Source: an uncultured Pelagibacteraceae bacterium | GTDB taxonomy: Bacteria > Pseudomonadota > Alphaproteobacteria > Pelagibacterales > Pelagibacteraceae | Direction: 5' to 3' | Assembly (NCBI GenBank): GCA_902597335.1 | Contig: CACJXK010000001.1 | Location: forward strand, 186,001 to 250,000 | DNA: 64,000 nucleotides | Notes under the pieces: model-generated | Told to the model about the DNA's origin: nothing | Database searches by the model: none | Seen by the model: only the letters and a program-made list of their open reading frames with translations | Program-made: the position numbers and the translations under genes | Shown here: positions 38,386 to 43,026 of the stretch, piece by piece | Numbering within the stretch: the stretch's first letter is position 1 | Layout of the letters: every line of letters starts with the position of its first letter

Positions 38386-40221
38386 GTGGAACGTATAATT
38401 ACAAAATCATTTGCAAGATTAATGGGCAGAGGTGTCCATAGAGGTTTTATTACCTATGAAGAACTAAATAAATCTTTAGGAAAAAGAAATCTATCTAATG
38501 AAAATCTGGAACAGGCTTTCATACATATTCTTGATGAAAAGATAATACTAGTCGAAAAAAAAGCAGATTTTAAGGTCTTAAGAAAAAAAGATAATGGTTC
38601 GAAAGAGGAGGGTAAGTCTGTTGAGAAAAGTGATGATCCTATCAGAATGTATCTTAGAGAAATGGGAGGAGTTGAATTACTTTCCAGAGAAGGTGAAATT
38701 GCTATTGCTAAAAGAATAGAGGCAGGAAAAGATGTAATGTTGAATGCACTATCTCAAAGTCCGATAACTGCCCAACAGTTTTTTGAGTGGAATACAAAAC
38801 TTCAAAATGATGAAATATTAGTAAGAGAAATAATAGATATCGATACCAATTACATGGAAGATGAGGATACTGGTCAAAGTGCAAAACAAAAAAAATCAGA
38901 TGAGAGCGCGGACAACCAGAACGGACAAGATTCTAATAGTGCCGATGATGATGAGTTCAATCCAACACTTGCTGCAATGGAAACCGAGATTAAACCTAAA
39001 GTTTTGCAAACTGTTAACAATTTAACAAAAGAGTACAACAAACTTATAAAATATCAGAAAGAGAAGCTAGACTGTCTACTAAATATGAAACAGTTTTCGC
39101 CATCAAAAGAAAAAAATTACAAAAAAATTGTAGAAGATATTTTAGAAAATATAAAAACTCTTCAATTATCTCCCTCAGTTCTAGAAGAATTAGTTCAAAA
39201 GCATTATGTAGAAAATCGTAAAATAATATCACTAGAAGGTAATCTTTTGAGACTTGCTTTAAGTGAAAAAATATCAAGAGATGAATTTATTAAATTTTAT
39301 GTAGGAAATGAAATTAATCCCAACTTAAAAACATTTTTAGACACCAATGATACTTGGAAGAAATTCTTTCAAAAATTTAAAGTTGAGTTTAAAAATATAC
39401 GAGACAGACTCGTTGAAACAAGTAATAAACTTGGTATTTCAGTAACAGATTACAAAATAATGGTAAGTAGGATACAAAAAGGAGAAAAAGAGTCTAGGAT
39501 TGCAAAAAAAGAAATGGTAGAGGCTAATCTTAGATTAGTTATATCAATTGCTAAAAAATACACAAACAGAGGTTTGCAATTTTTAGATTTGATACAAGAA
39601 GGAAATATTGGTCTAATGAAAGCTGTTGATAAATTTGAATATAGAAGAGGGTATAAATTTTCAACATATGCAACATGGTGGATTAGGCAGGCAATAACGA
39701 GATCAATTGCAGACCAAGCTAGAACTATAAGAATCCCAGTTCATATGATTGAAACAATAAACAAAATTGTAAGAACACAGCGATTAATTTTAAGCGAATT
39801 TGGTAGAGAGGCTACCCCCGAGGAACTTGCAAAAAAACTAAGAATGCCTCTTGAAAAGGTAAGAAAAGTATTAAAAATATCTAAAGAACCTGTGTCATTA
39901 GAAAAACCTGTCGGAGACGAGGAAGATAGTAGCTTAGGAGATTTTATAGAAGATACAAAAGCTCTAGCACCTTTAGATCAAGCAATTAAATCAAACTTAA
40001 GTGAAGCTACAACAAAAATATTATCTACTTTAACTCCAAGAGAGGAAAGAGTTTTGAGAATGAGGTTTGGTGTTGGTATGAATACAGATCATACCCTCGA
40101 GGAAGTAGGATTACAATTTTCAGTCACAAGAGAAAGAATTCGTCAAATTGAGGCAAAGGCACTAAGAAAGTTAAAACACCCAAGCAGATCAAAACAGTTA
40201 AAAAGTTTCTTAGAGAGCTAG
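38386..40221 (+). CDS. rpoD: RNA polymerase sigma factor RpoD
   Basis: GTG start; [86 protein letters not shown]. Confidence 0.97.
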
Positions 40222-40296
40222 GGGCCGTTAGCTCAATAGTAGAGTACTGCATTGACATTGCAGGGGTAGTTGGAGCGTAACCAACACGGCCCACCA
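40222..40296 (+). tRNA. tRNA-Val (GAC) with non-canonical T-loop and D-loop, CCA encoded
   Basis: 7-bp acceptor GGGCCGT/ACGGCCC, D-stem GCTC/GAGT, anticodon stem CTGCA/TGCAG with loop TTGACAT, T-stem GTTGG/CCAAC, loop AGCGTAA, ACCA end. Confidence 0.82.
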
Positions 40297-40355: not shown

Positions 40356-40432
40356 GGGCCTGTAGCTCAGTTGGTTAGAGCAGTACACTCATAATGTATT
40401 GGTCCCAGGTTCGAGTCCTGGCGGGCCCACCA
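40356..40432 (+). tRNA. tRNA with CAT anticodon (elongator Met or Ile2), CCA encoded
   Basis: GGGCCTG/CGGGCCC acceptor, D-loop with GG, anticodon loop CTCATAA, canonical T-loop CCAGG-TTCGAGT-CCTGG. Met versus lysidine-Ile not resolvable by eye. Confidence 0.93.
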
Positions 40433-42657: not shown

Positions 42658-43026
42658 TGTCCATGAGCCAGATAAAAGACTTATCGCTTTAATATATTAA
42701 AGAGGAAAGTCCGGGCTCTACAAAGACACAGTGCCAGTTAATGGCTGGCGGGGGCGACCCTAGGGATAGTGCCACAGAAAATAAACCGCCTTATCAAGGC
42801 AAGGGTGAAAAGGTGTGGTAAGAGCACACCGGCTAAGTTGGTAACAACTAGCGCATGGAAAACCCCACTGAGAGCAAGACTGAGTAGAGATGACAAAGTT
42901 AGAAATAACAAAAAGCAGTCTTTGGCTAGTCATCTGGGTTAGTTGCTTGAGCCTTAAAGTGATTTAAGGCCTAGAGAAATGGTAAGTTTAAATGACAGAA
43001 CCCGGCTTATATTTTATCTGGCAAAA
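42658..43026 (+). ncRNA. rnpB: RNase P RNA (class A)
   Basis: Conserved core GAGGAAAGTCCGGGCTC, GCGACCCTAGGGATAGTGCCACAGAAA, CAAGGGTGAAAAGGTGTGGTAAGAGCACACCG, 3' AGAACCCGGCTTAT; ends pair (GCCAGATAAAA / TTTTATCTGGC). Ends approximate. Confidence 0.95.

Follow-up and report, generated by a model that had tools for sequence, protein, structure and literature searches.

In a normal tRNA, G18 of the D-loop inserts between bases 57 and 58 of the T-loop and touches pseudouridine 55 (Ψ55), and to our knowledge this G18-Ψ55 contact is regarded as essentially universal. The tRNA-Val(GAC) gene that follows rpoD in the window (the whole stretch of 64,000 nucleotides analysed here, from a Pelagibacteraceae assembly of 1.27 Mb that is 87% complete) encodes A18 and G55 instead. 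The question raised by this locus is whether it holds a copy released from translation or a working tRNA with another kind of elbow. The features of the region are the following:

38386..40221, forward strand: rpoD (sigma-70), its TAG stop at 40219-40221 abutting the 5' end of the tRNA (open reading frame; throughout the genus the two genes mostly lie no more than about 25 nt apart)
40222..40296, forward strand: tRNA-Val(GAC), CCA encoded, alternative A18/G55 elbow (ARAGORN; Rfam RF00005, 53.6 bits; genus-wide conservation)
40235..40241, forward strand: D-loop AATAGTA, that is A14 A15 U16 A18 G19 U20 A21, with A18 in place of G18 (sequence; 17/17 variants keep A18 and G19)
40254..40256, forward strand: anticodon GAC (sequence, ARAGORN)
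40264..40268, forward strand: variable region GGGUA; base 48 is A, hence 15-48 is A-A and there is no Levitt R-Y pair (sequence)
40274..40280, forward strand: T-loop AGCGTAA, that is A54 G55 C56 G57 U58 A59 A60 (sequence; 55-60 read GCRUWA in 17/17 variants)
40356..40432, forward strand: downstream CAU tRNA, canonical (T-loop TTCGAGT, GG in the D-loop), an internal comparison (ARAGORN, Rfam)
42668-43025: RNase P RNA, class A (296.5 bits)

The tRNA-Val(gac) call of ARAGORN covered exactly 40222-40296, and the Rfam tRNA model, whose gathering cut-off is 29 bits, matched 40222-40293 with 53.6 bits, the window's other two tRNAs scoring 72.7 and 65.0. Direct reading gave an acceptor stem GGGCCGT/ACGGCCC, a D-arm GCTC-AATAGTA-GAGT with a G-U wobble at 10-25, an anticodon arm CTGCA-TTGACAT-TGCAG and a T-arm GTTGG-AGCGTAA-CCAAC, followed by A73 and the encoded CCA, with pairing intact in all four stems. 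The canonical G18, U54, U55 and A58 are absent, their places being taken by A18, A54, G55 and U58; the T-loop has four changes from TTCGAAT, at 54, 55, 58 and 60, G19 and C56 are retained, and 15-48 is A-A. This confirms the preliminary description, which had proposed a tRNA-Val(GAC) with intact stems, a T-loop departing from TTCGAAT at four of seven positions, A at 18 and preserved G19 and C56, and had correctly noted the ordinary loop of the tRNA at 40356-40432. There is no spacer between the rpoD stop codon and the first base of the tRNA (40219-40222), and tight spacing between rpoD and tRNA-Val is common in the genus. Because this close spacing recurs across the genus, the two genes are probably cotranscribed.

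Conservation of the gene was examined in Pelagibacter. Among 50 other genomes of the genus with a match, 40 carry a sequence 100% identical over the 75 bases, in a genus where RpoD protein identity to the window copy is mostly 85-95%. In the 17 distinct variants with the alternative elbow, 12 stem pairs vary, frequently at both of their bases, without a single break in 357 stem-pair cells. A18, G19, G55, C56, U58 and A60 are invariant across these variants, and the GAC anticodon, A73 and CCA are kept between species. A tRNA pseudogene, which random decay of stems in homologues would have indicated, is ruled out by the absence of any such decay. As for the codons to be read, GUU and GUC make up 143 of the 249 valine codons in 12 genes of the window, GUU being the commonest, so there is ample work for a GAC tRNA. 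Taken at the level of sequence, the elbow is very likely a functional alternative to the normal one, and the gene quite likely encodes a functioning elongator tRNA-Val(GAC) that reads GUU and GUC and whose elbow, though alternative, is complete; normal charging and use in translation would be expected of it.

A canonical G18/U55 tRNA-Val(GAC) was found in four Pelagibacter genomes (G037, G121, G122 and G215), lying 2-11 nt after rpoD in three of them, much as the alternative form does, and 255 nt after it in the fourth. The preliminary description had held that relatives with a canonical loop at the locus would point to a sequencing error or an isolated mutation; such relatives do exist, but that explanation is ruled out, as about 150 Pelagibacter genomes have the alternative form and the elbow switches as a whole. 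Between the canonical gene of G037 and the window gene, differences are confined to the D-loop, base 48, pair 52-62 and the T-loop. The elbow bases change jointly, with at least four switches of state on the RpoD tree, a count that rests on this single-gene tree, on which a single canonical clade was rejected (p-AU 0.003); recombination between relatives could be behind some of the apparent switches. In other genera of the family (G105, G148, G220) tRNA-Val(GAC) is canonical.

The alternative elbow is not restricted to valine tRNAs. Of 30 Pelagibacter tRNA-Phe sequences read, 17 carry the loops AGGAGTA/TGCGAAT and 13 are canonical, and tRNA-His occurs in two different A18/G55 forms (L105, L117) beside canonical ones; in the first of these the closing pair of the T-stem, 53-61, is U-A and not G-C. 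Among 93 unique tRNAs of Pelagibacterales loci, 18 were A18/G55, 75 were G18/U55 and none was mixed. Of the 248 genomes examined in the order, 168 matched a search pattern that requires A18/G55 and a GCTC-type D-stem and that gave zero control matches: by hand count, 148/159 in Pelagibacter, 18/23 in genus g8 and 2/4 in genus g7, one of the last two (G156) being possibly a contamination. No match was obtained in genera g5, g6 and g9 or in 54 genomes of the other family. A general Alphaproteobacterial trait is ruled out, since in a class-wide sample only 3 of 386 genomes matched, all three of them Pelagibacter. One genome (G000, C2:134501-134571) also contains a second copy of tRNA-Ser(GGA) that is 5'-truncated, lacks the normal 5' strand of the acceptor stem and scores 35.7 bits, possibly the remnant of an integration event.

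Beyond the order, the A18/G55 pattern was found in at least 114 stretches of viral contigs, and its A57 version in at least 117 stretches of an 85,000-species genome collection, both counts being lower bounds on stretches chosen by pattern. The matches listed from the collection include Verrucomicrobia, CPR, Planctomycetota, Myxococcota, Micrarchaeota, Clostridia and others, often in tRNA arrays. In the tRNA arrays on six contigs from genomes labelled Verrucomicrobia, Planctomycetota and others (L389, L289, L298, L320, L345, L325), A18/G55 is present in nearly every tRNA, across most identities. Covariation was assessed on the unique tRNAs of the pattern-bearing contigs listed, leaving out the pattern-matching tRNAs themselves. 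The viral contigs gave 107 A18/G55, 463 G18/U55, 3 A18/U55 and 1 G18/G55, and the genome contigs 243, 201, 1 and 7, respectively (Fisher p < 1e-110 for each set, uncorrected for relatedness). Position 18 was assigned here by a rule anchored on G19 and not by a covariance model, and several of the nominal mixed states, including those scored A18/U55, proved on inspection to be misparsed D-loops. The proposal that the elbow had been altered jointly on both sides is thus borne out by a very strong 18/55 covariation, the check that had been suggested for it.

Among the matches listed, the A18/G55 class covers about 20 tRNA identities. Of 517 A18/G55 tRNAs, 432 have U-A and 57 have A-U at 54-58, whereas the corresponding numbers for 734 canonical tRNAs are 716 and 10, and A60 accompanies A54-U58 in 55 of the 57. 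The window gene, which combines A18 and G55 with a retained G19 and C56, belongs to the class and, like phage tRNA-Ile, tRNA-His and tRNA-Val, to its A54-U58-A60 subclass; the 54-58 reversal is explained less well than the 18/55 change. A third, minor elbow, with G18, C55 and a T-loop TCCGANT, was observed in 16 unique tRNAs, all with U54-A58 (L174, L202, L236, L371 and others).

The covariation can be given a structural form. A18 would occupy the usual slot of G18 with G55 as its partner, and G55-C56-R57 together with A18 would make a composite tetraloop of GNRA-like form. The lone pair 54-58 (A54-U58 in the window gene, with A60) would close it, the G19-C56 contact being kept. In other RNAs, the G of UGNRA triloops pairs with an outside A to give a composite GNRA tetraloop (PMC2258182), and TGCRA plus A18 is likely the same motif within a tRNA, a geometry proposed from sequence. 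Base 57 is a purine in all 517 A18/G55 tRNAs among the matches listed and therefore fits the GNRA requirement. The window gene has G55 and a purine at 57 but not a U54-A58 closing pair; it would behave like a UGNRA motif, yet is no strict member, because its closing pair is A54-U58.

Comparison with known elbows sets the window gene apart from each of them. With the canonical bacterial tRNA-Val(GAC) it shares the cloverleaf, the anticodon, A73, CCA, G19-C56 and the locus after rpoD, whereas it has A18/G55, A54-U58, A60 and an A-A 15-48 where the canonical tRNA has G18/U55, U54-A58 and a pyrimidine at 60. With the T-loop/UGNRA lonepair triloops of structured RNAs and riboswitches (PMC2258182) it has in common a G at the second loop position, a purine at the fourth, a lone pair of the 54-58 type and, on the proposed geometry, an external A in the vacant GNRA slot, but here the motif is the tRNA's own T-loop, the A comes from the D-loop and the closing pair is reversed to A-U. 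Eukaryotic tRNA-Ala with A54/A58 and R15/A48 (PMC7566577) also presents a natural 54-58 change, tied to a purine-purine 15-48, as does, according to a passage of PMC7912444, the A54-A58 eukaryotic initiator tRNA as regards 54-58. That eukaryotic change affects 54/58 and is reported absent from bacteria, while the window gene has A54 but U58, and its main change is at 18/55, to A18 and G55. Finally, tRNA-Pyl and other tRNAs without GG/TΨC (PMC7609411) likewise have a non-canonical D-loop/T-loop contact, but tRNA-Pyl has neither G19 nor C56 and its D-loop is small, in contrast to the G19, C56 and ordinary-size D-loop found here.

The phage tRNAs bear on where such an elbow might come from. A tRNA-Val(TAC) on phage contig L163 has the AATAGTA/AGCGTAA elbow and the GGGUA variable region of the window gene. 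The window tRNA itself gave no direct match among named phages. Agrobacterium phage Atu_ph07, DSS3_MAL1 and Stenotrophomonas phage DLP_6, considered as carriers from matches to a phage tRNA-Gly query, were rejected, as their 18/55 bases are canonical. Further named phages that were checked were also mostly canonical, A18/G55 being found only in tRNA-Leu(CAG) of Brevundimonas phage Kikimora (isolated phage vB_BpoS-Kikimora; reverse strand 4089-4174 of L434; D-loop AAGCAGTAGA, T-loop TGCGAAT). A54 with a normal U55 was observed in tRNAs of the Mesorhizobium phage Cp1R7A-A1 (ATCGAAA), the Mycobacterium phage Alice (ATCGTAA) and the Stenotrophomonas phage DLP_6 (ATCGTTA) (L430, L431 and L422, respectively). 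An elbow that works in translation but that Pelagibacter acquired, through gene replacement or recombination, from phages or mobile tRNA arrays would be in line with the L163 tRNA, with the abundance of A18/G55 in phage tRNA sets and with the scatter of the canonical form over the RpoD tree. We nevertheless regard it as unlikely, as the gene remains at the rpoD locus, its tRNA has no match among the named phages, and the canonical gene of G037 equals the window gene outside the elbow, which fits an in-place change or a very local conversion.

TruB is the enzyme that makes Ψ55. In a search for TruB (TIGR00431) that was positive in 14/14 reference genomes as a control, none was found in the 159 Pelagibacter genomes sampled, including the complete G012, or in genera g8 and g9. 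Genera g5, g6 and g7 have the enzyme, as do most genomes of the other family (f2), and its loss in Pelagibacterales amounts to few evolutionary events. Within CPR, the A18/G55 carriers with TruB number 1 of 7, compared with 249 of 375 other genomes (Fisher p = 0.008), and the enzyme was found, in a second set from a contig scan, in 3 of 18 carriers listed (Fisher p = 3e-5); both tests ignore phylogeny and completeness, CPR genomes being incomplete, and the two carrier sets have G680 and G691 in common. As A18/G55 accompanies TruB loss in Pelagibacter and CPR, an elbow independent of Ψ55 modification is suggested. TruB loss as a universal requirement is ruled out, since G214, a genome from a different genus, combines TruB with an A18/G55 tRNA-Val, and the enzyme is also present in Verrucomicrobia and in further carriers with large genomes. 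Neither is the loss sufficient, as most Pelagibacter tRNAs stay G18/U55, keeping U55 although TruB was not found. Being neither needed nor sufficient, it is proposed as a permissive or favouring condition, a reading to which we give slightly less than an even chance; that it acts as a cause is something we infer.

If TruB had gone, or if an AT-rich, fast-evolving genome had left position 55 unconstrained, any compatible pair might have arisen by near-neutral drift, and the coincidence of TruB absence with A18/G55 in the reduced genomes of Pelagibacter and CPR fits that idea. One alternative pair dominates, however, with mixed states almost absent, and TruB-positive hosts of tRNA arrays carry A18/G55 as well, which makes drift improbable as the explanation. 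Phages or mobile elements might instead use A18/G55 to evade host factors that recognise the usual elbow, such as modification enzymes and decay or defence nucleases; the many A18/G55 tRNAs on phage contigs and in TruB-positive bacterial arrays speak for this, but it leaves the chromosomal tRNAs of Pelagibacter and CPR unexplained and seems quite doubtful. Least probable, and in our judgement hardly tenable, is a tRNA-like copy freed from translation by tRNA-Val(TAC) and now decaying or in a non-translational role, the latter having been raised as speculation, beside freedom to diverge, in the preliminary description: the tRNA-Val(TAC) it guessed at is indeed encoded in the genome, in canonical form, and in the complete relative G012 single UNN tRNAs cover the Ala and Pro boxes (tRNAs read), so that GAC is perhaps dispensable, but freedom to diverge is contradicted by an identical sequence in 40 species-level genomes, unbroken pairs, invariant elbow bases and a retained anticodon, discriminator and CCA, a non-translational role is unsupported with GUU the commonest valine codon, and the sole tRNA-Phe found in G012 has the A18/G55 elbow too.

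No earlier report of an A18/G55 elbow class was found in the open-licence literature. Passages of reviews on tRNA modification give no such class, and one passage calls Ψ55 the tRNA modification that is conserved most universally (PMC7912444); engineered precedents may exist among laboratory suppressor-tRNA selections. On the best reading, A18/G55 is a recurrent, self-consistent second elbow solution, used by many tRNA identities in phages and scattered bacterial lineages. We further hold it rather more likely than not that A18-G55 is a second stable natural elbow, composite GNRA in form and Ψ55-independent, that arose on many occasions through concerted switches in nearly all tRNA identities, dominates some mobile arrays and phage sets, and is favoured where TruB is lost.

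A recurrent, covarying replacement of this kind points to a second workable solution for the tRNA elbow and offers a natural experiment on the purpose of Ψ55 and TruB, with sequence pairs already at hand for the study of elbow stability, processing and passage through the ribosome. Programs that find tRNA genes, and the design of tRNAs as well, would do well to allow for the A18/G55 elbow, and phage tRNA arrays may hold tRNAs that function without host modification.
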